NCBI RefSeq assembly: GCF_031178195.1
Contig: NZ_JAPSJL010000004.1
Coordinates: 62,001-126,000, forward strand
Origin: Zhihengliuella sp.
GTDB lineage: Bacteria; Actinomycetota; Actinomycetes; Actinomycetales; Micrococcaceae
DNA: 64,000 nucleotides
Reading direction: 5' to 3'
The translations under genes and the position numbers were made by a program. The notes beneath the pieces were generated by a model, which saw nothing but the letters and a program-made list of their open reading frames with translations, was not told where the DNA came from and did no database searches. Of this stretch, positions 39,683-61,659 are shown piece after piece (the first letter of the stretch is position 1; the number at the start of each line of letters is the position of its first letter).

Positions 39683-40618
39683 CTAGAAGCGCAGGTTCCG
39701 GAGGTAGTCGATTCCGACCTCCGCGGTCTGCAGCGGGGTGACGTCCGGCTGGTCGTTCTCCACGATGAACTCCTTGGGCCGGTGGGCCGCGAAGATCCGG
39801 GCGAAGTCGATGGTGCCGGTACCCAGGTCCGCGAAGTCGCCCGCGGCGTCGCGGTCCTTCACGTGGTACTGCAGCACCTTCTGGGGTGCCTGGAGGATGG
39901 TGTCGATCGCGAACTGCACCGGGTCGGCCGCACCGACGCCGACGCCGCCCGTGACCGCCCAGAAGAGGTCGATCTCGAAGTGCACGAGCTTCGGGTCCAG
40001 GCGCTCCGTGAAGATGTCCCACGGCGTGACGCCGCCGCCGAGGTCCGTCGTGAACTCGTGCGCGTGGTTGTGGTAGCCGTACTTGAGGCCGGCTGCCTGT
40101 GCGACGGCGGCCTCGGCGTTCATCTGGTCCGCCCACTGCCGCCAGTCGTCCGCGTTGCCCGAGTTCAGCCACGGGACGTTGATGTGCGTCTGGCCGAGGG
40201 TGAGGGCGTTGGCGATCTTCGTCTCCAGCGCCGCGGAGTCCCGGCTGATGCCCTCATGGCTCGACGACGGGCGGATGCCCAGCGAGTCGAGGGTCGCCCG
40301 CAGGCTCTCGGCGGTGCGGCCGTACAGCCCGGCCAGCTCGACCTTCTGGTAGCCGTACTCCGCCAGGCTGGCGAGCGTGGCGTCCACTCCCTCGCCCCGC
40401 ATGATCGAGCGGAGCGTATAGAGCTGGATGCTGATCAATCCCGGGGGCACGGGCCGACCCGCGCCACCGGGGGCGGCGAAGGCCGCAGCGCCTCCGACCG
40501 TCGCGAGGCCGGCACCGAGGCCGAGGGCAGCGGCACCGCGCAGGAAGCCGCGCCGGTCGACGCCCTTCTGCTCGAGCGACTTGTTGAGGGCGGCGGGGGC
40601 GTTGAATCCGAAGCACAT
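39683..40618 (-). CDS. Exported (Tat) sugar phosphate isomerase/epimerase-fold protein
   Basis: A 311-residue xylose-isomerase-like TIM barrel with a twin-arginine signal: VDRRGFLRG at about 20-28, a hydrophobic core and AFAAPGG near 50. Barrel landmarks are LISIQLYTLRS, YGYQKVELAGLYGRT, LKYGYHNHAHEF, VHFEIDLFWA (metal-site Glu/Asp), QYHVKD and EFIVENDQ. Tat export suits a protein that folds with its metal before secretion. These exported relatives are often found with sugar oxidoreductases acting on 3-keto sugars; the substrate is unknown. AGGAAGG precedes the ATG, and a TTGACA promoter lies upstream. Confidence 0.82.
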   Translation of the reverse strand: MCFGFNAPAALNKSLEQKGVDRRGFLRGAAALGLGAGLATVGGAAAFAAPGGAGRPVPPGLISIQLYTLRSIMRGEGVDATLASLAEYGYQKVELAGLYGRTAESLRATLDSLGIRPSSSHEGISRDSAALETKIANALTLGQTHINVPWLNSGNADDWRQWADQMNAEAAVAQAAGLKYGYHNHAHEFTTDLGGGVTPWDIFTERLDPKLVHFEIDLFWAVTGGVGVGAADPVQFAIDTILQAPQKVLQYHVKDRDAAGDFADLGTGTIDFARIFAAHRPKEFIVENDQPDVTPLQTAEVGIDYLRNLRF

Positions 40619-40760: not shown

Positions 40761-41966
40761 TTACTTCGTCGCCCCGGAGAGGCCGTTGACCATCTCGTCG
40801 ATCCGCTGCGGGGACATGGCGTGATGGATGGCCAGCATGCTCGCACCCAGGACGCCCGCGTCGAGGCCGGAGCCGGACTGGACGATGCGCAGGTGCTGGG
40901 TCGCCAGCGGAATGGTGCGTGAGTAGACCATCTCCCGGATCCCGGCGATGAAGTGCTCCCCGGTGAGCGTCATCGAGCCGCCCACCACGATCACCGAGGG
41001 GTTGATCAGGCTGACGCAGGCGGAGAGGACCTCGCCGACGTCGCGCCCGGCCTGGCGGACGGCGTGCACGGCGTCGGTGTTCCCGGCGCCCACGAGCCGG
41101 ACCACGTCCTCGCCGGTCTGGGCGTCGAGGCCGAGAGCGCGCAGCTTGGTGGCGACCGCCGGGCCCGACGCCACGGCCTCGAGGCAGTCCTGATTCCCGC
41201 AGTGGCAGGGGACCCCGTTGCCGCTGTGCACCCGGATGTGCCCGATGTCGCCGGCGACGCCGTCGGCTCCGCGCTGCAGCATGCCGCTGGAGACGATGCC
41301 CGCACCGATGCCCGTGGCGATCTTGACGAAGAGCAGGTTGTCGACGTCGGGCCAGGCCACGTTGCGCTCGCCGAGCGCCATGATGTTGACGTCGTTGTCC
41401 ACGAGGACGGGGACGTGGAAGTGGTCCTGCAGGAATCCCGGCACGTCGAAGCCGTTCCAGCCGGGCATGATCGGCGGGTTGATGGGCCGGCCCGTCCGGT
41501 GCTCGACGGGTCCGGGGACCCCGACGCCGATGGCGAGCAGGTCGTCGGTCGCGCGGTCGGACTCCTCCATCAGTTCATTGCACAACTCCACGACGGCCTT
41601 CAGCACGACCTCGGGTCCCTGGCTGACCTCCAGCGTCCTGCCGGCCTCGCGGAGGCGGTGGCCGGCGAGGTCCGTCAGGGCGACGCGCAGGTGGGAGGCT
41701 CCGATGTCCACGCCGAGGACCGCCTTGCTGCCGGCCCGGAGTGCGATCCGGGAGGAGGGTCGGCCGCCCGTGGAGACGGCCTCGTCGACGAAGCCCACGA
41801 GGCCCAGTTCCATGAGGGCCTCGATCCGGAGGGTCACGGTGGACCGGGCCAGGCCCATCTGCTCGGCCAGTTCTGTCCGGGTCCGGGGCCGTCCGTCGCG
41901 GAGGAGCTGGAAGAGTTCGCTGGCACCTGCGCCGCCGAGGCCGCTGAAATTGCTTATGTCACTCAC
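40761..41966 (-). CDS. ROK-family transcriptional repressor
   Basis: A 401-residue ROK regulator: an N-terminal winged helix (about 10-75, TRTELAEQMGLARSTVTLRIEAL) followed by a sugar-kinase-fold domain with VLGVDIGASHLRVAL, GVGVPGPVEHRTG and the zinc-binding ROK signature GHIRVHSGNGVPCHCGNQDCLE. It should bind a sugar or sugar phosphate and repress nearby genes. GTG 41966 is preferred: a -10-like TGTAAT (41978-41973) is 6 nt upstream, and upstream residues do not look like the family. It lies next to, and probably controls, the two exported isomerase genes. Confidence 0.88.
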   Translation of the reverse strand: MSDISNFSGLGGAGASELFQLLRDGRPRTRTELAEQMGLARSTVTLRIEALMELGLVGFVDEAVSTGGRPSSRIALRAGSKAVLGVDIGASHLRVALTDLAGHRLREAGRTLEVSQGPEVVLKAVVELCNELMEESDRATDDLLAIGVGVPGPVEHRTGRPINPPIMPGWNGFDVPGFLQDHFHVPVLVDNDVNIMALGERNVAWPDVDNLLFVKIATGIGAGIVSSGMLQRGADGVAGDIGHIRVHSGNGVPCHCGNQDCLEAVASGPAVATKLRALGLDAQTGEDVVRLVGAGNTDAVHAVRQAGRDVGEVLSACVSLINPSVIVVGGSMTLTGEHFIAGIREMVYSRTIPLATQHLRIVQSGSGLDAGVLGASMLAIHHAMSPQRIDEMVNGLSGATK

Positions 41967-42297
41967 CGACTCATTACAGCACAGGAATCGACGAAACACC
42001 CGTGGCTTTGGTTGACGTTCAGGAGCACCGGTGTCGAGGGCGTCGGCAGGGGCCGATTGAATCACAAGGATGCTCCTCGCCGGCGGGCTCATCGTTTCAA
42101 TTCGCTGTAATCATGCGACGCTCCGGGCGCGAATATATCGCCGCATGCCGGAGATTCGTTGTTGGCCGTCATTACTCGTGCTACGTTCTGTGATCAACGT
42201 CTCGTTCCCTCGTGGGTTCTCCGGTGGACCGTTCACGCCGGGTGCCGTCCGATGCGGCCCCAGCCCAGCAGGGACGTACTTCGAGGAGGAAGTCTTG
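41967..42297. other. AT-richer divergent intergenic region
   Basis: This 331-bp gap between the ROK gene and the secreted isomerase contains AT-rich patches (GCGAATATATCGCC near 42130, TTCAATTCGCTGTAATCATG near 42095). It holds the leaderless ROK promoter at its left end and the isomerase promoter described separately. I see no credible gene in it. Confidence 0.5.
42159..42187 (+). promoter_or_regulatory. Promoter of the Sec-secreted isomerase and possibly the ebo-type operon
   Basis: TTGTTG (42159-42164) and TACGTT (42182-42187) are spaced by exactly 17 bp, about 110 nt before the ATG at 42298. No other promoter as good is seen before the inositol-phosphate-synthase-like gene 64 bp further downstream of that gene, so this may drive the whole operon. 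Confidence 0.55.
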
Positions 42298-43251
42298 ATG
42301 CACCACGCCAACCCCAGCACCGGGTCCGCACGCCGGCCGGCAGGCCGCCGGCTGGCGACTCTCGCCTCGCTCGCCCTGGTGGCCGGTGCCGCTCTCGCGG
42401 GTCAGCCAGCAGCAGCCGCGCCCGCGGCACCCGCCGGCGACGCGGCCGCGCAGTGCCCTGGCCGCGGCATCCCGGCCAGCAAGATCTCGATCCAGATGTT
42501 CAGCTACTTCGGCTGGACCCGCGAGGTCGGCACGGAGGCCGTTCTCGCCGAGCTGGCCGAGATCGGGTATCGGAACGTGGAGCCATTCGGCGGCACCTAC
42601 GAGGCCCGCACGGCCGAGGAGTTCAGTGCTCTCCTGGACCAGTACGAGCTGAAGGCGCCGACCTCGCACGGCAGCACCGACGAGGAGCGCTTCGACGAGA
42701 CGATCGCCTTCGCCAAGACGATCGGGCAGAAGTACATGGGCTCGGGCGGGTCGGCCTCCCCGGGGATCGGGAGCCTCGAGGACACGCTCGCCACGGCCGA
42801 GGCGCTTGACCGCCTCGGCGAGCGGTCGAAGAAGTCCGGCACCGGCAAGATCTTCGTGCACAACCACCAGAGCGAGTTCACCACCCAGTACGTCGACCCC
42901 GGCACGGGCGAGACCAAGAGCGCGTGGGAACTGCTCGTCGAGAACACCGACCCGCGCTACGTCACGTTCCAGCTGGACGTCCTCTGGGCCGCGGACGCCG
43001 GCATCGACGTCGCGCAGCTGATCGAGGAACACGGTGACCGCATCGAGCTCCTCCACGTGAAGGACGGATTCCTCAACGGCGACGAGCGCGCGACTCCGAC
43101 CGATGTCGGGGAGGGCGAGCTCGACTGGGCGCCGATCCTCGACGCGGCCCAGGGCAAGGTCAAGTACTACGTCGTCGAACGGGACTGGGCGCCCGCCACC
43201 GCAGAGTTCGCACAGGACAGCTTCGACTTCCTGACCTGCTACACGTACTGA
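42298..43251 (+). CDS. Secreted sugar phosphate isomerase/epimerase-fold protein
   Basis: A 317-residue TIM barrel with an N-terminal signal peptide (RRPAGRRLATLASLALVAG, cleavage near AAAAPAAPA, about residue 42). Landmarks are ISIQMFSYFGWTR, IGYRNVEPFGGTY, KIFVHNHQSEF, VTFQLDVLWAADAG, ELLHVKDG and YYVVERDW. It is a distant paralogue of the Tat-exported protein 2 kb away: NHQSEF, QLDVLWA and HVKD align with NHAHEF, EIDLFWA and HVKD. Strong GAGGAGGA precedes the ATG. It begins the plus-strand run leading into the ebo-type operon. Substrate unknown. Confidence 0.82.
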   Translation: MHHANPSTGSARRPAGRRLATLASLALVAGAALAGQPAAAAPAAPAGDAAAQCPGRGIPASKISIQMFSYFGWTREVGTEAVLAELAEIGYRNVEPFGGTYEARTAEEFSALLDQYELKAPTSHGSTDEERFDETIAFAKTIGQKYMGSGGSASPGIGSLEDTLATAEALDRLGERSKKSGTGKIFVHNHQSEFTTQYVDPGTGETKSAWELLVENTDPRYVTFQLDVLWAADAGIDVAQLIEEHGDRIELLHVKDGFLNGDERATPTDVGEGELDWAPILDAAQGKVKYYVVERDWAPATAEFAQDSFDFLTCYTY

Positions 43252-43315
43252 CCCGCATCACGCACCGACCCCTGTTCCTCTGCAGGGCTCCACCCACCGC
43301 GAAAGGAAGAACCAC

Positions 43316-44587
43316 GTGGGCATCACAGCCGAAGAGAGGCCCGGAGGGGCCGCGCCCGGAAGCGCGCTGGCGCCGGGGCGGACCGGCCTCTGGCTCATCG
43401 GCGCGAGGGGCTCCGTGGCGACGACCGCCACGGCGGGCCTCGCGGCGATCGCCGGCGGGCTGGCCCCTGCCACCGGGTGCGTCACGGAGCAGGGACTGCT
43501 CGGCGCGCTGCCGCTGCCCGCCTTCGGCGACCTCGTCGTCGGCGGGCACGACATCAGCGAGGTCTCCGTCGCCAAACGCGCGGAGCTCCTGGTGGAGGCG
43601 GGCATGCTGCCGCTGCGCCTGGTGGAGTCGGTCCGCGAGGAGCTGGACGAGGCGGACGCGCGCGTCCGCCCGGGCTACTACCCCGCAGCCCCGGGGACGG
43701 CGGAGGAACCCGCGGCCGCGACGGGCTCCCAGGCGGATGCCGCGCGCCGGCTCGCCCGGGACATCACCGCGTTCCGCGAGGCGCACGGCCTCGACCGCGT
43801 GGTCGTCATCGACGTCGCCTCCACGGAGCCACCCATCGAGGACCTGCCCGAGTTCGCCGACCCGGCGCTGCTCCTCGAGGCACTCGAGGACCCGACGCGG
43901 CGGGTCCTCCCGCCGAGTTCGATCGGCGCCTACGCCGCCATCCTGGCCGGGGCGCCGTACGCCTGCTTCACCCCGTCGACCGCCCTCGGCATCCCCGCCC
44001 TGCGCCAGCTCGCCGAGGAGCGGGGCCTCCCGACCGCCGGGCAGGACGGCAAGACCGGCCAGACCTGGCTTCGCTCCGTCCTCGCCCCGGCCTTCGCCGC
44101 GCGCGGGCTGCGCGTCCTGTCCTGGGCCGGCGCGAACCTCCTCGGCGGGGGCGACGGGGCCACCCTCGCCGACCCGCAGGCCGTGGCCGGAAAGCTGCAG
44201 TCCAAGAACCGCGGCCTGCAGCAGCTGACCGGCGGCGCCGCGACGCCCCTGCACATTGACAACGTCCAGGACCTCGGCGAGACCAAGGTCGCCTGGGACC
44301 ACATCAACGTGGAGGGCTTCCTCGGCTCCCGGCTCTCCCTCCAGACCACCTGGACCGCGTTCGACTCCATGCTCGCCGCGCCCATGCTCCTGGACCTCGC
44401 CCGGCTCCTGGCCCTCGCCGACGCGGCGGGGGAGCGCGGCCATATCGCGCCGCTCGGCTTCTTCTTCAAGGATCCGTGGGGCAGCGACGAGCACTCGTTC
44501 GCCGAGCAGACCCGCCTCCTCGCCGAGTGGGCGGAGGCCGCCAGCGCCCGGGTCGCTGCCGGCGCCGGCGGCGGAGCCCATCCGTGA
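43316..44587 (+). CDS. Inositol-3-phosphate synthase family protein (ebo-type cluster)
   Basis: A 423-residue myo-inositol-1-phosphate synthase-family enzyme; the family converts glucose 6-phosphate to a cyclitol phosphate with NAD. Visible are the Rossmann loop LIGARGSVATTATAG, VVIDVASTEPP, FTPSTALGIPALRQLAEERG, the catalytic Lys-rich block GQDGKTGQTWLRSVLAPAF, GANLLGGGDGATL, SKNRGLQQL, and HINVEGFLGSRLSLQTTW. It is longer and more divergent than the housekeeping actinobacterial Ino1 (about 360). It occupies the place of the dehydroquinate-synthase-like EboD of other ebo clusters. GTG start behind GAAAGGAAG; GTGA overlap with the UbiA gene. Confidence 0.85.
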   Translation: MGITAEERPGGAAPGSALAPGRTGLWLIGARGSVATTATAGLAAIAGGLAPATGCVTEQGLLGALPLPAFGDLVVGGHDISEVSVAKRAELLVEAGMLPLRLVESVREELDEADARVRPGYYPAAPGTAEEPAAATGSQADAARRLARDITAFREAHGLDRVVVIDVASTEPPIEDLPEFADPALLLEALEDPTRRVLPPSSIGAYAAILAGAPYACFTPSTALGIPALRQLAEERGLPTAGQDGKTGQTWLRSVLAPAFAARGLRVLSWAGANLLGGGDGATLADPQAVAGKLQSKNRGLQQLTGGAATPLHIDNVQDLGETKVAWDHINVEGFLGSRLSLQTTWTAFDSMLAAPMLLDLARLLALADAAGERGHIAPLGFFFKDPWGSDEHSFAEQTRLLAEWAEAASARVAAGAGGGAHP

Positions 44588-45489
44588 GCGGCGCCTCCGC
44601 GGGCACGCTGCGCGCCTACTTCGAGCTCGTGCGCGCCCCCGCGGTCCTCACGGTCCTCGGGGACACCCTGGCCGGCGGCGCGGCCGCCGGGCACCCGGTC
44701 GGCGGCCGCCGGCTCGCGCTGCCGCTGGCGAGCGCCTGCCTGTACGCCGGGGGCATGGCCCTGAACGACTACGCCGATCGCGGCATCGACGCCGTCGAGC
44801 GACCCGAGCGGCCCATCCCCTCCGGCCGCATCAGCCCCGAGCGGGCCCTGGGCGCGGCGGCCGCTCTGACCGTGCTCGGCCTCGCGCTGAGCGTCGTCGG
44901 CGGCGGCCGCCGGTCGCTCGCGGTGGGTGCGCCGCTCGCCGCGGCGATCTGGTCCTACGACCTCGCGGCCAAGCGGCACCCCGTCCCCGCGGTCCTGACG
45001 ATGGGCGCCTGCCGGGCCCTCGACGTCCTCATGGGCGCCGGCACCGCAGACCTCCGCCGCGCGTTGCCCGCGGCGGCGGCCCTGGGGGGCCACACCGTGG
45101 CCGTCACGGCCCTGTCCCGCGGCGAGGTCAACGGCACCAGCACGACGACGGCGGCCGGCGCCGCGGCCGCGACCGCCCTGGTCTCGGCGTCGGTCCTGGC
45201 CGGAGCGCCTCGCTCCTGGCGGGGCGGGCTCCCGGTCCTGGCGGCCGTGGGGGCCTACGCCGCTCGCTGCGCACCCGCGCAGGTGGAGGCGGCGCTGGAC
45301 CCCGCCGCGCGGAACGCCCTCGAGGCGACGAAACGCGGTATCCGCGCGATGGTGCCGCTCCAGGCGGCCCTCGCGTTCCGCCACGGCAGCACCGCGGCCG
45401 GGCTGGCGATCGCCGCCGTCGACGTGTTGGGGAAGGTCCTCCGCGCGCGTTCCGCCCGCGGCACCGAGAGGGAGATGAGCGAGTCGTGA
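44584..45489 (+). CDS. UbiA-family prenyltransferase (EboC / SCO3242-like)
   Basis: A 301-residue membrane prenyltransferase with about eight hydrophobic segments. The first Asp-rich motif is NDYADRGID (residues 61-69) followed by ERPERPIPSGRIS, which is the signature of UbiA enzymes of this subgroup; the second region is SYDLAAKRHPVPAVLTMGACRALD. It should transfer a prenyl chain from a prenyl diphosphate to an acceptor, here plausibly the cyclitol made by the neighbour. GTG start and stop both overlap adjacent genes (GTGA), so it is fully coupled. A polyprenyl diphosphate synthase is encoded 10 kb away in the same island. Confidence 0.85.
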   Translation: MSGASAGTLRAYFELVRAPAVLTVLGDTLAGGAAAGHPVGGRRLALPLASACLYAGGMALNDYADRGIDAVERPERPIPSGRISPERALGAAAALTVLGLALSVVGGGRRSLAVGAPLAAAIWSYDLAAKRHPVPAVLTMGACRALDVLMGAGTADLRRALPAAAALGGHTVAVTALSRGEVNGTSTTTAAGAAAATALVSASVLAGAPRSWRGGLPVLAAVGAYAARCAPAQVEAALDPAARNALEATKRGIRAMVPLQAALAFRHGSTAAGLAIAAVDVLGKVLRARSARGTEREMSES

Positions 45490-47054
45490 GCACCGAGACG
45501 ATCAACGGGGGAACCACCGCCGCGGCCACCCGCACGGGTGCCGACGACGCCTGGGCGGGCGGGACCGGCCTCCCCTTCGCCCTCGGGTACGGGACCAACG
45601 GGTTCACCGACCACTCGCTCCCGGTGGCGCTGGAGCTGCTGGCCGAGCAGGGGTACGACGCCGTGGCGCTGACCCTCGGCCACCCGCACCTGGACCCCTT
45701 CGCCGACGACCTCGACGCCCGGCTGCGGGATCTGCGGTCACGGCTCGACGAGCTCGGCCTCCGCGTGGTGGTCGAGACCGGCACCCGGTTCCTGCTCGAC
45801 CCCCGGCGCAAGCACCGCCCGACGCTCGTGGACGAGCACGCCGACGCGCGCGTCGACTTCCTTCGCCGCGCCGTGGACGTCGCCCGCGCCCTCGACGCCG
45901 AGTGCGTCTCCTTCTTCTCGGGCGTCCTCCCCGAGGGCGTCTCCGCCGGGGCCGGCTGGGAGCGGCTGACCCGCCGCCTGCCCGCCGTCGTCGAGCACGC
46001 GCGCGCCAGCGGCGTGGTCCTCTCCCTCGAGCCCGAGCCGGGCATGCTCGTGGAGACCGTCGCCGACGCCCTGCGCCTGCGCGCGGCCCTCGGCGACCCC
46101 GACTGCCTGCGCCTGACCGTGGACATCGGCCACTGCGTGGTGGTGGAGCCGGGCGGGGTCCGCGGGGCGCTGCTGCAGGCCGGGGATCTGCTGGCCAACG
46201 TCCAACTGGACGACATGCGCCCCCATGCCCACGAGCACCTGCCCTTCGGCGAGGGCGTCGTGGACCTCCCGCTGGCGCTCGCCACGCTCGCGGAGCTCGA
46301 CTTCCGGGGTGTGGCCGCCGTCGAGCTGCCCCGGCACTCGTTCGACGCGCCGGGCCTGGCCGAGCGCAGCCTGGCCGCGCTCCGCACCGCCTGGGCCGAC
46401 GGTGCCCCGCAGCGCCGTTGCGCCCAGTGGGTGGGCGAGAGCGCCGCGGCCATCTCCGCCGACCCGTCCGTGCTGGCGCGGGTCTTCGCGTCCGCGGGGC
46501 GGAAGGTCGGCCGCTCGCCCCTGGACCCCGACGTCGACCCCGCCGGGGTCCTCCACGGCACGGCGGACGACCGCGCCCGGGCCGAGCTGATCCTCCGCCT
46601 CGGCGACACCCTGGCGCCCGCGGACCTCTCCGCGGCGCTGCAGGAGCTCTACACCCGCGGCGACTCGGCCGAGCGGCGCGGCGTCCTCCGCGGCCTCGGC
46701 GCACTCGCCGGGGCAGGCCGGACGCTGGACGACGCCGTCGTCGACGCCGGGCTCGCCGTCACCGCGGACGCACTGCGCACCAACGAGACGAGCCTGGTCG
46801 CCGCGGCCGTCGGACCCTTCGCCGCCGCCCACCTGGACCAGCACGCCTGGCGGCACGCGGTCCTCAAGCTCGTCTTCATGGGCGTCGGGCTCGAGGCCGT
46901 CGCCGGCCTCCGCGACCGGGCGGACGCCGAGCTCGCGCGGATGGCGGAGGATTTCGCGGCCGAGCGCCGCGCGGCCGGCCGCCCCGTCCCCGCGGACCTG
47001 GACCTGATCCGGCGGGCCGACGCCCGCCCCGCCGCCCGTACGACGTCGTCCTAG
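45486..47054 (+). CDS. Fusion: sugar isomerase-like TIM barrel + EboA domain
   Basis: A 522-residue two-domain protein. Residues about 28-300 are a xylose-isomerase-like TIM barrel (FALGYGTNGFTDHSL, HPHLDPFADD, VVVETGTRFLLDP, VVLSLEPEPGMLVET, RLTVDIGHCVVVEPGG, ANVQLDDMRPHAHEHLPFG, VAAVELPRHSFDAPG). Residues about 305-515 are an EboA domain, ending with LRTNETSLVAAAVGPFAAAH, LDQHAWRHAVLKLVFMGV and MAEDFAAERRAAGRPVPADL. Elsewhere EboA is a separate protein. The fusion ties EboA physically to a sugar or cyclitol isomerase step. GTG start overlaps the UbiA stop; 11 bp to the next gene. Confidence 0.82.
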   Translation: MSTETINGGTTAAATRTGADDAWAGGTGLPFALGYGTNGFTDHSLPVALELLAEQGYDAVALTLGHPHLDPFADDLDARLRDLRSRLDELGLRVVVETGTRFLLDPRRKHRPTLVDEHADARVDFLRRAVDVARALDAECVSFFSGVLPEGVSAGAGWERLTRRLPAVVEHARASGVVLSLEPEPGMLVETVADALRLRAALGDPDCLRLTVDIGHCVVVEPGGVRGALLQAGDLLANVQLDDMRPHAHEHLPFGEGVVDLPLALATLAELDFRGVAAVELPRHSFDAPGLAERSLAALRTAWADGAPQRRCAQWVGESAAAISADPSVLARVFASAGRKVGRSPLDPDVDPAGVLHGTADDRARAELILRLGDTLAPADLSAALQELYTRGDSAERRGVLRGLGALAGAGRTLDDAVVDAGLAVTADALRTNETSLVAAAVGPFAAAHLDQHAWRHAVLKLVFMGVGLEAVAGLRDRADAELARMAEDFAAERRAAGRPVPADLDLIRRADARPAARTTSS

Positions 47055-47065
47055 GAAGGACCACC

Positions 47066-47944
47066 ATGCGCATCTTCGACCCGCACATCCACATGACCAG
47101 CCGCACCACGGGCGACTACGAGGCCATGTACGCCGCCGGCGTCCGCGCCCTCGTGGAGCCCGCGTTCTGGCTGGGCCAGCCGCGCACCAGCGTCGGCTCG
47201 TTCATCGACTACTTCGACGCCCTGCTGGGCTGGGAGCGCTTCCGGGCCGCGCAGTTCGGCATCCGCCACCACGCGACCATCGCCCTGAACCCCAAGGAGG
47301 CCAATGACCCGCGCTGCGTCCCGGTGCTCGACGAGCTGCCGCGCTACCTGGTCAAGGAGGGCGTGGTCGCCGTCGGCGAGATCGGCTACGACTCCATGAC
47401 CCCCGCCGAGGACACGGCGTTCAGCCGCCAGCTCGAGCTGGCGCGCGAGTACGAGCTGCCCGTCATGGTCCACACCCCGCACCGCGAGAAGCTCGCCGGC
47501 ACCCACCGGACCCTCGACGTCGTCCGCGAGTCCGGCATCGCCCCGGAGACCGTCCTGGTGGACCACCTCAACGAGACCAACATCGGGATCGTCAAGGACG
47601 CCGGCGCCTGGATGGGCTTCTCCATCTACCCGGACACCAAGATGGACGAGGACCGCATGGTCGCCCTGCTGCAGCAGTACGGGACCGAGCGGATCCTCGT
47701 GAACTCCGCGGCCGACTGGGGCCGCTCCGACCCGCTGAAGACCCGGCGCACCGCCGACGCCATGCTGGCCGCCGGCTTCTCCGACGACGACGTCGACCAG
47801 GTGCTCTGGCGGAACCCGGTGGAGTTCTACGGGCAGAGCGGCCAGCTGATCCTCGACCCGATCCCCGGCTTCGACGCCGCCGGCCACCCGGACCCGGCCG
47901 CCGGCTTCGAGGGAAACTCCGTCCTGCGCGGGGCGCGCGTCTGA
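47066..47944 (+). CDS. TatD-family metal-dependent hydrolase (EboB)
   Basis: A 292-residue TatD/amidohydrolase-fold protein starting behind AGGAAGG. Metal-ligand motifs are FDPHIHMTSRTTGDYEAM at the N-terminus, the carboxylate VGEIGYDSMTP near residue 115, PVMVHTPHREK with its His pair, VDHLNETNIG and the C-terminal NSAADWGRSDPLKT. The FDPHIHMTSRTTDDY-type start and the AFWLGQPRTSVGSF segment are characteristic of the EboB group rather than of TatD DNases. Its hydrolytic target is unknown. The stop overlaps the next start (TGATG). Confidence 0.85.
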   Translation: MRIFDPHIHMTSRTTGDYEAMYAAGVRALVEPAFWLGQPRTSVGSFIDYFDALLGWERFRAAQFGIRHHATIALNPKEANDPRCVPVLDELPRYLVKEGVVAVGEIGYDSMTPAEDTAFSRQLELAREYELPVMVHTPHREKLAGTHRTLDVVRESGIAPETVLVDHLNETNIGIVKDAGAWMGFSIYPDTKMDEDRMVALLQQYGTERILVNSAADWGRSDPLKTRRTADAMLAAGFSDDDVDQVLWRNPVEFYGQSGQLILDPIPGFDAAGHPDPAAGFEGNSVLRGARV

Positions 47945-49077
47945 TGCTCCTGTCCTACTGCACCAACGTCCACCCCGCCGAGGATCTCGACGGCGTGGTC
48001 CGCCAGCTCCGCGAGTACGCCGGGCCGATCCGCCGCGCCGCGGGGCGGGAGACGCTCGGCGTCGGGCTCTGGCTCCCCGCCGGCCTCGCCGCCCGGCTCG
48101 CCGGCAGCCCCGAGGACCGGGCCGTGCTCCGCGGCGTGCTGGAGGAGGAGGGACTGGTCCTGGCCACGGTCAACGCGTTCCCCTACGGCGGCTTCCACGA
48201 CGACGTCGTCAAGCACGCCGTCTATCGGCCCACGTGGGCCGAGCGGTCCCGACTCGAGTACACGCTGGACTGCGCCGCGGCCACCGCCGCGCTGCTGCCC
48301 GCGGGCGCCGCCGGGTCCATCTCCACCGTTCCGCTGGCGTGGCGGGAGCCGTGGACCGAGGACGACGACGCCGCGGCCACCGCCGCGTTCGCCGAGCTGT
48401 CCGCGGGGCTGCGCGCCCTGCGCGAGCGCACCGGGCGGACCGTCCGCGTGGCGGTCGAGCCCGAGCCCGGGTGCGTGCTGGACACGGTGTCCGACGTTGT
48501 CGGCTGGCTCGGCGCCCGCGTGGACCGCGGGATCGACCCCGAATTCGTGGGGCTCTGCGTGGATGCCTGCCACCTGGCCGTCTCCTTCGCCGACCCCGCG
48601 GAGGCCGTCGCGGAGATCGACGCCGCCGGACTGCGGATCGTCAAGGTGCAGGCCTCGGCCGCGCTGCACGTGGCCGACCCGCGCGACCCGGACGCCCGGT
48701 CCGCGCTCGAGCGGTTCGTGGAGCCCCGCTACCTGCACCAGGTACGGGAGTCCGGCGCGTCCGGCGTCCTCGCCGCCGACGACCTGGACGCGGCGCTCGC
48801 CGACCTCCCCGGGGCGGGACCGTGGCGGGTGCACTTCCACATCCCGCTGCACCACGTGCCGGCGGACCCGCTGGAGACCACCGCCGACGTGCTGCGCCGC
48901 ACCGTCGCGGCTGTGGACCGGCTGCCCTACGCCGACGACGTCCACCTCGACGTCGAGACCTACACCTGGGGCGTCCTGCCCGGTGCCGCCGTCGGACTCG
49001 TCGACGGCGTCGCGGCGGAGCTGGAGTGGGCGCAGTCCCATCTGCTCGCCCCCGCACCCGCCCGTACCGCTCTCTGA
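47944..49077 (+). CDS. eboE: Metabolite traffic protein EboE (TIM-barrel)
   Basis: A 377-residue xylose-isomerase-like TIM barrel of the EboE type: LSYCTNVHPAEDLDGVV at the start, GLWLPAGLAARL, NAFPYGGFHDDVVKHAVYRP, VAVEPEPGCVLDTVSDVV, VGLCVDACHLAVSFADP, QASAALHVADP and a C-terminal VHLDVETYTWGVLPG. The YCTNVHPxEDL opening and the TYTWxVLP ending are the family hallmarks. EboE acts in the ebo pathway, which has been implicated in moving a natural-product precursor to the periplasm in scytonemin-producing cyanobacteria. It is translationally coupled to EboB. Confidence 0.88.
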   Translation: MLLSYCTNVHPAEDLDGVVRQLREYAGPIRRAAGRETLGVGLWLPAGLAARLAGSPEDRAVLRGVLEEEGLVLATVNAFPYGGFHDDVVKHAVYRPTWAERSRLEYTLDCAAATAALLPAGAAGSISTVPLAWREPWTEDDDAAATAAFAELSAGLRALRERTGRTVRVAVEPEPGCVLDTVSDVVGWLGARVDRGIDPEFVGLCVDACHLAVSFADPAEAVAEIDAAGLRIVKVQASAALHVADPRDPDARSALERFVEPRYLHQVRESGASGVLAADDLDAALADLPGAGPWRVHFHIPLHHVPADPLETTADVLRRTVAAVDRLPYADDVHLDVETYTWGVLPGAAVGLVDGVAAELEWAQSHLLAPAPARTAL

Positions 49078-49136
49078 CCCGCCCGCCGACCCGCTCGCCC
49101 GCCGACCCGCTCGACCGCCGACCCCGGAGGAGATCC

Positions 49137-50564
49137 GTGAAACCCGTACTGCTGCTCAACGTCGTCGGGCTGACCGCCCGCGCCCTGACCTCGATGCCGC
49201 GGCTGTCCCGGGTCGCCGCCCAGGGCTGGTCCGCCGAGATGGCGACCGTCCTGCCGGCGGTGACGTGCTCGGTGCAGTCCACGATGCTCACCGGGCTGTC
49301 CCCGGCGCAGCACGGGATCGTCGGCAACGGCTGGTACTTCCGGGACCTGGGCGAGGTCTTCCTCTGGCGGCAGCACAACCGGCTGGTCGGCGGCGAGAAG
49401 CTCTGGGAGGCCGCCCGGAGCCAGGACCCCTCCTACCGCTCCGCCAACCTCTGCTGGTGGTACGCGATGGGCATGACTACCGACCTGACCGTCACGCCGC
49501 GGCCGATCTACCACGCGGACGGCCGCAAGTCCCCGGACGCCTACATGCGCCCGCCCGAGCTGCACGACGAGCTGGTGGGGCACTTCGGCGAGTTCCCGCT
49601 CTTCCAGTACTGGGGCCCCACCGCGGCCATCCGTTCCAGCCGGTGGATCGCCGAGTCCACCCGGCACGTCCTGCGGACGCAGGCCCCCGACCTGCTCATG
49701 GCCTACGTGCCGCACCTGGACTACGACCTGCAGCGATTCGGTCCCCGCTCGCCGCAGGCGACGCAGGCCGCCGCGGAGCTCGACGCCGCGCTGACGCCGC
49801 TGCTCGACGAGGCGGAGGCCCGCGGCTACGCCGTCGTCGCCGTCGCGGAGTACGGCATCGAGGACGCCCGGAGGCCCGTGGACGTCAACCGGGTCCTGCG
49901 GAGCGAGGGGCTGCTGGAGGTCTACGTCCAGGACGGGCGGGAGCAGCTGGACCCGTGGACCTCGCGCGCGTTCGCGGTCGCGGACCACCAGGTGGCCCAC
50001 GTGTACGTTGCGGACCCGGCGGACGTGGACCGGGTGGCCGCGCTCCTGCGATCGGTCGACGGCGTGGACGAGGTCCTGGACCGTGAGGCGCAGGCCCGGT
50101 ACGGGCTGGACCACGAGCGCTCGGGTGAGCTGGTGGTGGTGGCCGAGCCCGGCGCCTGGTTCACCTACTACTTCTGGCTCGACGACGACGCCGCGCCCGA
50201 GTACGCCCGCGGCGTCGACATCCACCGCAAGCCGGGCTACGACCCGGCCGAGCTGTTCTTCGATCCCGCGGACCGGCTCGCCAAGGCCAAGGCCGGGCTG
50301 AACCTGGTCAAGAAGAAGGCCGGGCTCCGCTACGCCATGAGCACTGTGCCGCTCGACCCCTCGCACGTGCGGGGCACCCACGGCCGGCTGCCCGACTCCG
50401 CCGAGGGCACGCCGCTGATCCTCGCCTCCGACCACCGCATCCCCGCCTCGGTCGCGGGGCTCGTCGAGGCCGGGCGCCAGGTCCCGGCGGCGGCCGTGAA
50501 GGGGCTCGTCCTCGAGACCCAGGGGCTCCTGGACTACTCCGGCAGGACCGGCGCGCACCTCTGA
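49137..50564 (+). CDS. Alkaline phosphatase / nucleotide pyrophosphatase family protein (EboF-like)
   Basis: A 475-residue phosphodiesterase/nucleotide-pyrophosphatase superfamily protein. The metal-site Thr nucleophile region is VLPAVTCSVQSTMLTGLSPA, followed by HGIVGNGWYFRD, AYVPHLDYDLQRFGP and VVAVAEYGIEDA. Near the C-terminus VRGTHGRLP and ILASDHRIP complete the usual binuclear zinc ligands. No signal peptide, so it is cytoplasmic. It would hydrolyse a phosphate or pyrophosphate ester of the pathway. The GTG start has CGGAGGAG upstream; the 59-bp gap before it consists of a CCGCCGACCCGCTCG-type repeat. Last gene of the core operon. Confidence 0.82.
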   Translation: MKPVLLLNVVGLTARALTSMPRLSRVAAQGWSAEMATVLPAVTCSVQSTMLTGLSPAQHGIVGNGWYFRDLGEVFLWRQHNRLVGGEKLWEAARSQDPSYRSANLCWWYAMGMTTDLTVTPRPIYHADGRKSPDAYMRPPELHDELVGHFGEFPLFQYWGPTAAIRSSRWIAESTRHVLRTQAPDLLMAYVPHLDYDLQRFGPRSPQATQAAAELDAALTPLLDEAEARGYAVVAVAEYGIEDARRPVDVNRVLRSEGLLEVYVQDGREQLDPWTSRAFAVADHQVAHVYVADPADVDRVAALLRSVDGVDEVLDREAQARYGLDHERSGELVVVAEPGAWFTYYFWLDDDAAPEYARGVDIHRKPGYDPAELFFDPADRLAKAKAGLNLVKKKAGLRYAMSTVPLDPSHVRGTHGRLPDSAEGTPLILASDHRIPASVAGLVEAGRQVPAAAVKGLVLETQGLLDYSGRTGAHL

Positions 50565-50611
50565 GTGCGTGTCGGTCGAGCCGTTTACGCGATTGAAACA
50601 ACATATGGAGT

Positions 50612-50638
50612 GGGCGTGTTCCTGCGATGCACGCGCCC
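50612..50638 (+). terminator. Possible terminator after the ebo-type operon
   Basis: GGGCGTG (50612-50618) can pair with the CACGCGCCC stretch (50630-50638) with a small bulge, 48 bp after the operon's last stop. It is weaker than the other hairpins in the window. Confidence 0.4.
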
Positions 50639-50684
50639 TCAAAGTCGCGCCTTTGGGCGACGGGCGGCGGGTGGCCCTCTGGTC

Positions 50685-50699
50685 ACAAACCGAGTTTGT
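50685..50699. promoter_or_regulatory. Inverted repeat upstream of the secreted sugar dehydrogenase
   Basis: ACAAAC (50685-50690) and GTTTGT (50694-50699) form a perfect inverted repeat about 100 bp before the dehydrogenase start, within GGTCACAAAC...GTTCTGTGAAACC, which extends the dyad imperfectly. It is the kind of AT-rich palindrome ROK repressors bind. Confidence 0.45.
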
Positions 50700-50799
50700 T
50701 CTGTGAAACCACTAGTAATTTGTGAGCTGCCCCACTAGCGTGACGAGTGGCCCCGAACCCGGCGAGACCGGGTCCTCGACGACGAGAAGGAAGCGAACG

Positions 50800-52998
50800 A
50801 TGACAGTCAAGAGACAAGGGAAAGCAGAGTCCCGCCGGCATCGCACCGATGCCGCGGGCTCCACCAGGCGACGCGCGGTCCGGACGGGCGCCGGCCTGGC
50901 GATGGCGGCCCTGGTCGCCAGCACCTTCGCCGTCGTGCCCGCCCAGGCCCAGCCCGGCGCCGGCACGGCCGAGACGGCCCCGCCGGACTCCGCCTTCCAG
51001 AAGGTGACCCTCAACGACGGCCCGGGCGAACCCGTCGACCTGGCCGTTCTGCCCAACAACGACGTGCTGCACACCACCCGCGACGGCGAGGTCTGGCTGA
51101 ACGACGCGGAGACCGGCCTGAACACGCTGGCCGCGACGCTAGACGTCTACGAGCACGACGAGGAGGGCCTGCAGAGTATCGCCCTGGACCCAGAGTTCGG
51201 GGCGAAGGGCAACAACTGGGTCTACCTGTACTACTCCCCGCCGCTGGACACGCCGGTCGACGACCCGGCGACCACCGACGTCAACGAGGGCGACGCGCCG
51301 ACCACGGGCACCGCCGAGGACTTCGCCCCGTTCGCGGGCCACCTCACCCTCTCGCGCTTCCAGTTCGACGGCACCACGATCGACCTCTCGACCGAGCAGG
51401 AGATCATCGACGTGCCGGTCGACCGCGGCCTGTGCTGCCACGTCGGCGGCGACATCGTGTTCGACGCCGACGGCAACCTCTACCTCTCCACCGGCGACGA
51501 CACGAACCCGTTCGTCTCCGGCGGCTACACCCCGATCGACGAGCGCCCGGACAGCAACCCGGCGTTCGACGCCCAGCGCACGTCCGCCAACACCAACGAC
51601 CTGCGCGGCAAGGTCCTGCGCATCACGCCCAAGGACGGCGGCGGCTACACCATCCCGGAGGGCAACCTCTTCGCACCGGGTACGGAGCAGACCCGCCCCG
51701 AGATCTTCGTCATGGGCCTGCGCAACCCCTTCCGGATCGAACTGAACCAGAGCAGCGGCGAGCTCTACATCGCCGACTACTCCCCGGACGCGCGGTCCGC
51801 GAACCCCGACCGCGGCCCGGCCGGCACGGGCAAGTGGGCCGTGACCACGGAGCCGGCGAACTACGGCTGGCCGTACTGCGCCACCGCCGAGCTGCCGTAC
51901 AACGACTACGACTTCGCGACCGACACCGCCGGTGAGCCCTTCGACTGTGCGGCACCCGTGAACGAGTCGCCGAACAACACCGGCCTGACCGAGCTCCCCC
52001 CGGTGGACCAGCCCGAGGTCTGGTACTCCTACGGCCAGTCCTCCGAGTTCCCGGAGCTGGAGACCGGCGGCATCGGCCCCATGGCCGGACCGGCCTACGA
52101 CTTCGACGCGAAGGCCACCCGGGGCAACGCCTCCGTCGCCTGGCCCGAGTACTACGCGGACAAGCCGCTCTTCTACGAGTGGACCCGCGACTACATCAAG
52201 GGCTTCAGCCTGGAGGACGGCGAGCTCGCCTCCATCGAGAGCGTCGTCGACTCCGTGGTGACGGACAACCCGATCGACATGGAGTTCGGCCCGAACGGCG
52301 CCCTGTACGTCCTCGAGTACGGCGACGGCTACTTCGGCGAGAACGAGGACGCCCAGCTCTCGCGCATCGACTACATCGGCACCGGGGGCAACCACAGCCC
52401 CGTGGCCGTCGCCTCCGGCACCCCCACGGTGGGGGCCGCGCCGCTGACCGTGGAGTTCTCCAGCGAGGGCACCGCGGACGCCGACGGCGACAAGCTGAAG
52501 TACGCCTGGGACTTCGACTCCGACGGCGTCGTGGACTCCAAGGAGGCGAACCCGACGTTCACCTACGAGGCGGTCGGCACCTACACCGCGAGCCTGAAGG
52601 TCACGGACCTCGGCGGCAAGGACCGCGGCCGTCACTCCTCGGCCGAGGTCGCGATCGAGGTCGGCAACCAGGCGCCGGTGGTCGAGTTCATCAGTCCGGT
52701 CGAGGGCCAGGACTTCCAGTTCGGCGACACCGTGAGCTACGAGGTCGTCGTGACGGACGACCAGCCGGTCGACTGCGCGCGGGTCGAGGTCACCTACATC
52801 CTCGGCCACCACACGCACGGCCACCCGCAGACCACGACGTCGGGCTGCACCGGCACGCTGACGACCACCGTCCCCGAGGGCCACGATCCGGCCGTCGACG
52901 ATCTCTCGGCCGTCTTCAACGCGAGCTACACGGACCTCGGCGACGAGACCTCCGCGCCGCTGACCGGCACCGCCGAGGTGGTGCTGTACCAGGACTGA
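50800..52998 (+). CDS. Secreted PQQ-dependent sugar dehydrogenase-like protein with PKD domain
   Basis: A 732-residue exported protein. The signal peptide (TRRRAVRTGAGLAMAALVAS, cleavage near AQAQP, about 51) has twin arginines and may use Tat. Residues about 65-545 form a glucose/sorbosone dehydrogenase beta-propeller: EPVDLAVLPNNDVLHTTRDG, EEGLQSIALDPEF, CCHVGGDIVFDADGNLYLSTGDDTNP-type blades, EIFVMGLRNPFRI, NYGWPYC. A PKD domain follows (NHSPVAVASGTPTVGAAPLT ... YAWDFDSDGVVDSKEANP, about 550-640), then a C-terminal beta domain (NQAPVVEFISPVEGQDF). It probably oxidises a sugar at the cell surface. ATG behind GAGAAGGAAG. Confidence 0.82.
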   Translation: MTVKRQGKAESRRHRTDAAGSTRRRAVRTGAGLAMAALVASTFAVVPAQAQPGAGTAETAPPDSAFQKVTLNDGPGEPVDLAVLPNNDVLHTTRDGEVWLNDAETGLNTLAATLDVYEHDEEGLQSIALDPEFGAKGNNWVYLYYSPPLDTPVDDPATTDVNEGDAPTTGTAEDFAPFAGHLTLSRFQFDGTTIDLSTEQEIIDVPVDRGLCCHVGGDIVFDADGNLYLSTGDDTNPFVSGGYTPIDERPDSNPAFDAQRTSANTNDLRGKVLRITPKDGGGYTIPEGNLFAPGTEQTRPEIFVMGLRNPFRIELNQSSGELYIADYSPDARSANPDRGPAGTGKWAVTTEPANYGWPYCATAELPYNDYDFATDTAGEPFDCAAPVNESPNNTGLTELPPVDQPEVWYSYGQSSEFPELETGGIGPMAGPAYDFDAKATRGNASVAWPEYYADKPLFYEWTRDYIKGFSLEDGELASIESVVDSVVTDNPIDMEFGPNGALYVLEYGDGYFGENEDAQLSRIDYIGTGGNHSPVAVASGTPTVGAAPLTVEFSSEGTADADGDKLKYAWDFDSDGVVDSKEANPTFTYEAVGTYTASLKVTDLGGKDRGRHSSAEVAIEVGNQAPVVEFISPVEGQDFQFGDTVSYEVVVTDDQPVDCARVEVTYILGHHTHGHPQTTTSGCTGTLTTTVPEGHDPAVDDLSAVFNASYTDLGDETSAPLTGTAEVVLYQD

Positions 52999-53047: not shown

Positions 53048-53085
53048 GCGGGCCCCGCACCAGCTCAGGCTGGGGCGGGGCCCGC
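53048..53085. terminator. Bidirectional terminator between dehydrogenase and ROK gene
   Basis: GCGGGCCCCGCACCAGC (53048-53064) pairs with GCTGGGGCGGGGCCCGC (53069-53085), one mismatch, loop of 4 nt. It overlaps the last codons of the convergent ROK gene. Confidence 0.85.
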
Positions 53086-54315: not shown

Positions 54316-54402
54316 CCGGATAGGTCCTTTCTGGCCGGTCTCCCCGTGCTGGTCGTTCCATCGTAGCCGCAAGGATCCGGGGCCCCCGGGCCGCGGCGGC
54401 CG

Positions 54403-55530
54403 TCAGCGGGGACGGACGCGGGAGACGACGGCGAGCAGCAGGTCGCGGAGCCGATCCCGCAGGGGCGCGGGGACGCAGTCGGACTCCAGGGCGGCGAGGG
54501 CGCGTTCGGCGTGCCCGGCGGCGAGGTCGACGGCGTAGTCCCGGGCACCGCACTCGGTCAGGAGGCGGCGGATGCGCGCGGCGTCGGCCGGGCCCAGGCC
54601 GGGGCTCCCCACCAGATGGGCGACGCCGGCCCACTCGGGGCGGGAGGCCGCGTAGGCCAGGAGCACGGTGCGTTTGCCCTCGCGGAGGTCGCTGCAGCCC
54701 GCCTTGCCGGTGCTGGCCGGGTCGCCGAAGACGCCGAGGACGTCGTCGACCAGCTGGTAGGCGATGCCGGCATCGCGCCCGAAGCGCTGCAGCGCGTCCG
54801 TGGTGCGGGCCGGTGCCCCCGCCAGGACGACGCCGGCGCGCAGGGGCGCCTCGAAGGAGTAGACGGAGGTCTTGCGGTGCGCCGTCTTGGCGAGGTCCTC
54901 CACGGACGGCGTCGCCGACGCGTGGCTGAGCTCGACGTCGTAGACCTCGCCGCCGACGGACGAGAACAGGGCGTCGTCCAGGATGTCGTGGAGGCGGTCC
55001 TCGACGTCCCGGGTCGCCTCGATCCGGCGCAGGAGGCGGTATGCCCCCGCCAGGGCGAGGTCACCGGCCAGGAGGCCGGCCGAGGCGCCGGCGTGGTCCG
55101 CGGCCGCGGGGTCGGCGCCGGCGCGCAGTGCGCGGCCCCGGTACCGGCCGGAGACGTTGGGGACGCCCCGGCGGACGAGGTCGCGATCGATGACGTCGTC
55201 GTGGACGAGCAGCGCCGTGTGGAGGAGCTCGTAGGAGGCGGCGAGCAGGGCCGCCGCCCGCTCGTCCCCGCCGCCGAGGTGGTGGTAGGCGAGCAGGACC
55301 AGCCGCGGCCGGGCACGGCCGCCGCCGTCGGCCGCCCGCTCGAGGGCCTCCCAGAGCCGCAGGTACGGCGGTCCGATGGAGGCCGCGCGCAGCTTCGCGT
55401 CGGCGAAGAACCGCGCCAGCTCCTCCTCCACCAGGCCCAGCCCGCGCTGTCCGTCCCCACCGGGGCACGGGCGGGGACCGACAGCGACGTCGTGGCCTCG
55501 GTCGGCGGTCACGTCCGCGGCGAAGTCCAT
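54403..55530 (-). CDS. Polyprenyl diphosphate synthase (geranylgeranyl-type or longer)
   Basis: A 375-residue trans-prenyltransferase of the IspA/CrtE family, condensing IPP with allylic diphosphates. The first Asp-rich motif is HDDVIDRD (Asp111-Asp115), the second QLVDDVLGVFGD (Asp262-Asp270). GGGRARPRLVLLAY replaces the usual GGKxxRP motif, and KTSVYSFEAPLRAG is typical of actinobacterial GGPP-like synthases. Leu113-adjacent residues before the first motif (ELLHTALLV) do not fix chain length. The ATG lies 8 bp after the importer permease stop, so it appears to be in the transporter operon, supplying a prenyl donor for the UbiA enzyme. Confidence 0.88.
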   Translation of the reverse strand: MDFAADVTADRGHDVAVGPRPCPGGDGQRGLGLVEEELARFFADAKLRAASIGPPYLRLWEALERAADGGGRARPRLVLLAYHHLGGGDERAAALLAASYELLHTALLVHDDVIDRDLVRRGVPNVSGRYRGRALRAGADPAAADHAGASAGLLAGDLALAGAYRLLRRIEATRDVEDRLHDILDDALFSSVGGEVYDVELSHASATPSVEDLAKTAHRKTSVYSFEAPLRAGVVLAGAPARTTDALQRFGRDAGIAYQLVDDVLGVFGDPASTGKAGCSDLREGKRTVLLAYAASRPEWAGVAHLVGSPGLGPADAARIRRLLTECGARDYAVDLAAGHAERALAALESDCVPAPLRDRLRDLLLAVVSRVRPR

Positions 55531-58123: not shown

Positions 58124-58191
58124 GTGGTGAACCTAACACATTATGTCGGCAATCGGTACAAGGGCGTCGATTTCCCCCGAAGTTCTGTTAT

Positions 58192-58207
58192 TGTGACAGC
58201 AGTCACG
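58192..58207. promoter_or_regulatory. CRP/GlxR-like site in the divergent importer promoter region
   Basis: TGTGA (58192-58196), 6 bp, TCACG (58203-58207) matches the CRP/GlxR consensus TGTGA-N6-TCACA at 9 of 10 arm positions. It lies between the divergent importer ATPase and binding-protein genes, suggesting cAMP-type carbon control of both. Confidence 0.55.
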
Positions 58208-58276
58208 CACTCGTCGGCCTCGTGGACACCGGGCTCGAATCTGGCGTAGACGCACCAATTCACTGAGGAGAGACAC

Positions 58277-59320: not shown

Positions 59321-59327
59321 CGATCAC

Positions 59328-59365
59328 GGGAGCGCGGCGCCCCCCCGGCGGGGCGCCGCGCTCCC
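59328..59365 (+). terminator. Terminator after the binding-protein gene
   Basis: GGGAGCGCGGCGCCCC (59328-59343) and GGGGCGCCGCGCTCCC (59350-59365) are perfect 16-bp arms with a 6-nt loop, 8 bp after the stop. It may attenuate rather than end transcription into the oxidoreductase gene, 72 bp further on. Confidence 0.85.
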
Positions 59366-59437
59366 GTCGATCCGTCCCGCCGTCGCCCCACGAACAGCTC
59401 CGCCAACAACCAGCCCCCCACGGGTGCAGGAGGAAAA

Positions 59438-60657: not shown

Positions 60658-61659
<1,002 letters not shown>

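Follow-up and report, generated by a model that had tools for sequence, protein, structure and literature searches.

What does a sugar-isomerase barrel do in an ebo operon, and does the EboA protein work with it? Both questions are raised by one gene in a 64,000-nucleotide stretch of DNA (the window) from Zhihengliuella sp., contig NZ_JAPSJL010000004.1, which encodes a single protein joining a xylose-isomerase-like triosephosphate isomerase (TIM) barrel to an EboA domain. The gene lies in a variant of the ebo operon in which a homologue of myo-inositol-1-phosphate synthase (MIPS) replaces the sugar-phosphate cyclase EboD, and across genomes the barrel appears to track MIPS rather than EboA. 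On balance we slightly favour an explanation in which MIPS and the barrel form a swappable module for cyclitol entry that takes the place of EboD, with EboA acting as a HEAT-like scaffold. Such a module would be a more interesting result than the fusion, which is already in print. The operon consists of the following features:

43316..44587 (+): MIPS-like gene (myo-inositol-1-phosphate synthase family), stand-in for EboD, 423 aa; PF07994, PF01658
44584..45489 (+): UbiA-family prenyltransferase of the SCO3242 family, counterpart of EboC; NF045897, 313 bits (cut-off 260)
45486..47054 (+): TIM-barrel isomerase::EboA fusion protein, 522 aa; open reading frame (ORF), Pfam, NCBIfam, AlphaFold
45582..46391 (+): TIM-barrel domain of the fusion, residues 33-302, like hydroxypyruvate isomerase (Hyi) and ketose 3-epimerases; PF01261
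46392..47051 (+): EboA domain of the fusion, residues 303-522, predicted to be all-helical and HEAT/ARM-like; NF035938, model
47066..47944 (+): TatD-like metal hydrolase, counterpart of EboB; PF01026, E 1.8e-13
47944..49077 (+): EboE, the operon's other TIM barrel, of a different kind; NF035939 TIM_EboE, 419 bits (cut-off 250)
49137..50564 (+): type I phosphodiesterase / nucleotide pyrophosphatase (PDE), counterpart of EboF; PF01663, E 1e-63

An ebo operon with MIPS in place of EboD

The genes are tightly packed in the order MIPS–UbiA–[TIM::EboA]–TatD–EboE–PDE and all run in one direction, with the UbiA gene overlapping both the preceding and the following gene by 4 bases. Counterparts of eboA, eboB, eboC, eboE and eboF are all found together in this operon. 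The UbiA protein scores 163 bits against the EboC profile NF035940, below its cut-off of 250, and the TatD-like gene holds the same operon position in relatives. For comparison 99 loci besides the window were used, namely 18 stretches from the genomes of a phylum sample, 80 named contigs and one plasmid. The order MIPS-UbiA-TIM-EboA-TatD-EboE-PDE is conserved among the relatives' loci, and an EboD-like ORF is found in none of the 99 (L023-L121) at E 1e-4. The genome itself has one gene of the DHQ_synthase family, on a different contig from the operon. A promoter scan of 43000-50900 did not find a sigma-70-like site.

The MIPS-like protein matches both domains of its family (PF07994, E 1.7e-53; PF01658, E 2.9e-26), and its closest solved relative is Ino1 of Archaeoglobus fulgidus (1u1i, E 5e-58). 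Seven residues that presumably form the active site, D225, N255, D261, K274, K278, K306 and K367 in A. fulgidus numbering as read from the alignment, are all kept. A literature search on the catalytic lysines of MIPS returned nothing. The family and these residues suggest that the operon MIPS makes an inositol-type cyclitol phosphate. The same genome encodes a second, canonical Ino1 on contig C9, with which the operon protein shares 25% identity over 226 residues. The Ino1 enzymes of 12 further genomes that were compared share 69-88% identity with this canonical one. On a tree of the window and 31 ebo loci chosen out of the 89 with MIPS, the operon protein clusters with other barrel-linked MIPSs.

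The company kept by the barrel was followed through a phylum sample of 396 genomes, with a barrel search cut-off of E <= 1e-25. EboA is present in 18 genomes, EboE in 19 and the barrel in 24, and all 18 EboA genomes are among those 24. MIPS lies within the stretch fetched around the barrel in every one of the 24 (the window, 16 and a further 7), including the six barrel genomes that have no EboA, where MIPS and barrel sit in an unrelated cluster. Seventeen of the 19 genomes bearing EboE have MIPS in the operon. One genome (G279) carries barrel and MIPS together on another contig than EboA and has EboE in two pieces; its ebo operon looks damaged. Another (G381) has the operon EboD–EboG–TatD–EboE–UbiA–PDE, and there both barrel and MIPS are absent.

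Among the 99 loci, MIPS is found in the fetched stretch of 89. Four of the ten misses are contig ends (L057, L086, L110, L115), in another four (those of three Lentzea and of Nocardia sp. NRRL S-836) the contig carries MIPS at a distance of 21-23 kb upstream, and one (L039) is the G279 locus, with MIPS and barrel on another contig. The tenth is taken up below. In the Lentzea and Nocardia sp. NRRL S-836 loci (L209-L213) about 21-23 kb separate the ebo-type MIPS from UbiA in all four genomes, and in L. flava this insert holds an ORF weakly like a polyprenyl synthase (83 bits).

Outside the phylum the survey covered plasmid records, which do not show chromosomes and include many near-copies that inflate the counts; MIPS lies within 5.4 kb of the barrel in 33/33 barrel records. 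The 48 plasmid records with EboE divide into 29 with MIPS and barrel, 15 with a close EboD homologue and four from Streptomyces with neither (one partial match). A close EboD homologue is here one with at least 44% identity to the Azospirillum query, which is itself among the 15, taken from the best 40 of 115 matches, the others scoring lower. Twelve chosen non-actinobacterial plasmid records give six with EboA and no barrel, five with a barrel and no EboA domain (Gemmatirosa, Hymenobacter, two Methylobacterium and Roseomonas) and one, a Deinococcus of the EboG type, with neither. The Gemmatirosa record has MIPS, barrel, UbiA, PDE, TatD, EboE and an ORF weakly like EboG (42 bits) without an EboA domain. 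The barrel thus stays with MIPS even where an operon lacks EboA.

Some further plasmid records were noted. A sugar isomerase beside the Ketogulonicigenium ebo operon was considered as a counterpart of the barrel and rejected, as the record holds no barrel match at E <= 1e-20 and there is no mutual match. A Streptomyces sp. NBC_01244 plasmid (L161, 8965-10143) carries EboE on its own among genes of the aromatic-polyketide type; the 9 kb fetched on either side hold no further ebo gene. On a Streptomyces camelliae plasmid (L127, 3185-4387) a gene annotated as ScyD/ScyE family stands directly upstream of a MIPS-type ebo operon, which recalls the link of ebo with scytonemin genes.

The barrel–EboA fusion protein

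The fusion is encoded by one ORF with a GTG start and no internal stops. A preliminary description of this DNA had read it as a single 522-residue protein, with a barrel to about residue 300 and EboA from about 305, and profile matches bear out both parts. The N-terminal half matches PF01261 (xylose-isomerase-like) over residues 49-301 (E 6e-37). A search of the C-terminal half with EboA profiles gives NF035938 EboA_domain over residues 361-506 at 144.9 bits (cut-off 50, E 1.8e-42), a profile with zero matches across 14 control genomes. The fusion falls short of the cut-off of 320 bits for the stand-alone EboA family NF035937 (57.4 bits), as does the stand-alone EboA of Roseivivax (214.3 bits).

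For the AlphaFold model of the full chain, 82 rows were selected from the loci and aligned, with near-copies and L085, L086 and L110 left out. The chain is predicted with a mean predicted local distance difference test (pLDDT) of 91.5 and a predicted template modelling score (pTM) of 0.83, and has no disordered stretch between the domains. The domain boundary given in the preliminary description was right, since barrel strands and helices span about 32-305 in the model and only helices follow from about 307. That description had also named a frameshift joining two genes as an alternative; this, like mis-assembly, is rejected because the identical fused frame is present in independent genomes. 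The counterpart in Z. salsuginis, of which the window's strain is a relative, is 87% identical and also fused, and the fused frame recurs in 12 further Micrococcaceae loci and in other families.

The solved relatives of the barrel are ketose 3-epimerases (VIA Z 31.3 to 3wqo and 29.8 to UlaE, 3cqi), with which it shares about 20% identity. In an alignment with UlaE, E182, D213 and E280 fall on three metal-site positions, which in UlaE we take to be metal ligands, and the three are candidate ligands here. At the fourth metal-ligand position 96 of 98 ebo barrels have Gln, and nine of 11 other barrels have Ala or Ser. E182, E184, D213, E280, H68, K109, H110, R122, D243, H249 and H251 are invariant in all 98 ebo and 11 other barrels, and R283 is retained in 97/98 and 11/11, respectively. 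Because the active-site residues are the same in both settings, the barrel is probably active and doing related chemistry inside and outside ebo operons. The barrel scores far under the cut-offs for hydroxypyruvate isomerase, ribulose-phosphate epimerase and inosose dehydratase, and a plain assignment to any of the three is rejected.

The EboA domain modelled alone is all-helical (pLDDT 93.1, pTM 0.88). Its best VIA match, the HEAT repeats of SF3B1 (7q4p_A; Z 13.0, root-mean-square deviation 3.7, 189 residues), is weak and at a level (Z about 13) at which a shared arrangement of helical repeats may be enough to give a match. A known enzyme fold is rejected for EboA, the best PDB sequence match having E 0.25 and Foldseek finding no solved structure at E <= 0.001 (best E 0.063). 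We read the predicted fold as a probable HEAT/ARM-like helical solenoid, which weakly suggests a role in scaffolding rather than catalysis.

Barrel and EboA are fused in 37 of the 99 loci, separate adjacent genes in 60 and partial in two, a ratio that is not a census because the named contigs were taken as the 80 best among at least 126 relatives. The separate neighbours are in different frames in 56/60 loci. Barrel and EboA share one frame in those 37 loci, any other gene pair of the operon in at most one of the 99. On a tree of 109 barrels (leaving out L024, which is fragmented, and L039, which has no barrel), fused copies occur in Micrococcaceae, a mainly Pseudonocardiaceae clade, Rathayibacter, one Streptomyces and one genome of another family. 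This distribution takes at least five changes between the fused and separate states (starred branches force five), or four when five long rows are dropped (starred branches force three). Although the tree does not distinguish gain from loss, its deepest ebo branches are of the unfused type. The fused state is kept groupwide, in 14 Micrococcaceae rows (with the window) and in 20/21 rows of the mainly Pseudonocardiaceae clade. The distance from barrel motif to EboA motif is 108 residues in all 13 Micrococcaceae loci. Repeated fusion makes it likely that barrel and EboA physically touch, probably without a fixed geometry.

Other irregular frames were seen in these loci. In Kibdelosporangium banguiense (L063, 10882-10886) a stop codon splits barrel and EboA in-frame within an otherwise fused clade, possibly as a recent split, a pseudogene or a sequence error. 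Barrel and TatD share one open frame in Cellulosimicrobium sp. Marseille-Q4280 (L085, 8024-12475), as do UbiA and barrel in Isoptericola halalbus (L100, 7829-10876); these may be frameshifts or other fusions.

A proposed entry module and its rivals

In the explanation that we slightly favour, the dedicated MIPS-family enzyme would make an inositol-type cyclitol phosphate, as its family and conserved active-site residues suggest, and the TIM-barrel isomerase/epimerase may then reshape the cyclitol or a keto form of it. Together the two would replace EboD and feed the shared later steps, namely UbiA prenylation, the TatD-like hydrolase, EboE and the phosphodiesterase. The EboA domain, as a HEAT-like helical scaffold, would hold the enzymes together, with EboA (or EboG) standing apart from the entry chemistry. 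Loss of the stop between neighbouring barrel and EboA genes would leave the entry isomerase covalently docked on EboA. A MIPS-family entry enzyme would narrow the ebo entry substrate to a cyclitol, and the MIPS-type lineage makes the route testable in harmless hosts that are easy to handle, among them Arthrobacter and Streptomyces coelicolor.

A fuller version, whose chances we put a little short of even, is that the first step of ebo was built twice. Many lineages would use EboD, and actinobacteria with ebo genes and Gemmatirosa an unrelated, dedicated, archaeal-like MIPS with the barrel. The barrel would take the inositol that MIPS makes, or the keto intermediate of that reaction, and turn it into a compound that suits the shared later enzymes, with EboA as the receiving scaffold. 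The metabolite would be a prenylated cyclitol, its ring possibly derived from glucose 6-phosphate.

Several points weigh against these proposals. What the analysis shows is the composition of the operon, the pattern of exchange between MIPS and EboD, the repeated joining of barrel and EboA, conserved active-site residues and the folds of the models. We infer the chemistry, the product and the scaffold role alike, and the MIPS product and the barrel substrate are guessed from the families. The barrel reaches no equivalog cut-off, its best scores being 41.8 of 353 bits for TIGR03234 and 16.8 of 290 bits for TIGR04379 (IolE), and no oxidoreductase lies in the operon to supply the ketone on which barrels of this kind usually depend. 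One locus, L029, a second ebo copy in G128 besides L026, has barrel and EboA with no adjacent MIPS and is, at the level of the operon, a true exception to the pairing of barrel and MIPS. The redundancy of the plasmid records, the low VIA score of EboA and the Foldseek result given above count on the same side. The distance between barrel and EboA motifs ranges over 76-126 residues in 36/37 fused loci (the motif is missing in L092), and because the junction length varies a rigid domain geometry is not conserved.

The preliminary description had called the fusion direct evidence that EboA acts on the substrate of a sugar/cyclitol isomerase or as a subunit of it. An association between the two is likely from the repeated fusion, and the steady adjacency of the two genes, the presence of the barrel in 18/18 EboA genomes and the confident prediction of the full chain without a disordered linker would all suit a functional subunit. 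The claim of direct evidence is not supported, as barrel and EboA occur apart in both directions and the steady partner of the barrel is MIPS. Six of the 24 barrel genomes lack EboA, and the 12 chosen plasmid records include six with EboA and no barrel against five with a barrel and no EboA. In the usual TIM-barrel topology the final helix ends on the side opposite to the active site. The last barrel helix of the fusion runs straight into EboA, and its end is predicted on that side. We consider it unlikely that EboA is a working part of the isomerase.

About equally doubtful is that the fusion is a by-product of packed, overlapping genes, a lost stop codon being tolerated without functional meaning. 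The 4-base overlaps within the operon, the 60 loci with separate neighbours (56 of them in different frames) and the Kibdelosporangium stop inside an otherwise fused clade are what such an origin would predict. Against this, the fusion state has changed at least three to five times and fused copies are kept across whole groups, while the other neighbouring pairs of the operon, equally subject to packing, share a frame in at most one of 99 loci compared with 37. That the operon MIPS is the cell's ordinary source of inositol and merely adjoins the operon is very improbable, for although its family is right and its active-site residues are intact, a second canonical Ino1 is encoded elsewhere in the genome and the operon copy, 25% identical to it, groups with barrel-linked MIPSs.

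Surroundings, a second cluster and known systems

The operon surroundings read as a sugar or cyclitol catabolism neighbourhood. Flanking the operon are genes for two ROK regulators, a Gfo/Idh oxidoreductase, an ABC transporter whose binding protein is of the sugar type, and three more barrels like xylose isomerase:

39683-40618 (-), 42298-43251 (+), 60694-61659 (+), 40761-42092 (-), 53065-54372 (-), 55539-60586: flanking sugar-type genes (barrels, ROK, ABC, Gfo/Idh)
54403..55530 (-): polyprenyl diphosphate synthase, outside the operon; PF00348, E 7.6e-46

The polyprenyl diphosphate synthase has a ROK regulator on one side and a sugar-type ABC permease on the other, and is a possible source of the prenyl donor. 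Of the 13 Micrococcaceae loci L042-L054, as fetched, 10 contain such a gene.

The barrel also marks a second MIPS–barrel gene cluster, with a YcaO protein. This is the cluster of the six EboA-less barrel genomes, and it encodes MIPS, an HD-domain-like protein, a methyltransferase, a Gfo/Idh/MocA oxidoreductase, an MBL-fold protein, YcaO, the barrel, GT4 and PIG-L, families that were read from the Roseomonas copy and are not each found in every locus. Loci of this type come from the phylum (L195-L199, L201/L202) and from Hymenobacter, Methylobacterium and Roseomonas plasmids (L158, L159, L160, L167). The gene set resembles those of the thiol type (mycothiol/bacillithiol). A literature search on the MIPS-barrel-YcaO cluster turned up no paper.

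Among enzymes, the barrel has its fold and three metal-site positions in common with the ketose 3-epimerases and hydroxypyruvate isomerase (UlaE, D-tagatose 3-epimerase, Hyi). It differs from them in its low identity of about 20%, in falling short of the equivalog cut-off and in the Gln at the fourth ligand position.

The ebo operon is described from cyanobacteria, Bacteroidetes, algal plastids and pseudomonads and is needed for export of a scytonemin precursor, and a nematode-repelling phenotype is lost when ebo genes are hit (PMC5133447, PMC6282210). The fusion and the scaffold idea both have precedents, as EboA homologues of various Actinobacteria have been described as hybrids, with data not shown (Yurchenko et al. 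2016, PMC5133447), and EboA, predicted to have repeated helices, has been proposed to assist in the assembly of a membrane-bound EboC-A-B complex (Klicki et al. 2018, PMC6282210). Those hybrids have the same architecture as the window protein, with an N-terminal xylose-isomerase-like region and a C-terminal EboA; the passage on them does not mention MIPS, unfused pairs or repeated fusion (PMC5133447). The replacement of EboD by MIPS is absent from four ebo papers, PMC5133447, PMC9235831, PMC6282210 and PMC6092422, whose main texts use the word 'inositol' 0 times. Nor did it turn up in the wider literature searched, which took in few subscription journals.

The prenyltransferase of the window belongs to the NCBIfam family named after SCO3242 of Streptomyces coelicolor. 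SCO3242 and SCO3243, the latter annotated as a myo-inositol phosphate synthase, are treated as genes of the CDA antibiotic cluster (PMC3610822). From the family name and the gene numbering, both would be part of a MIPS-type ebo operon. With the eboA-F operon as described (PMC5133447, PMC6282210), the operon of the window shares EboA, the TatD-like EboB, the UbiA-like EboC, EboE, EboF and the tight packing. It differs in that EboD is replaced by a MIPS-family gene and in the extra TIM barrel, which is fused to EboA.

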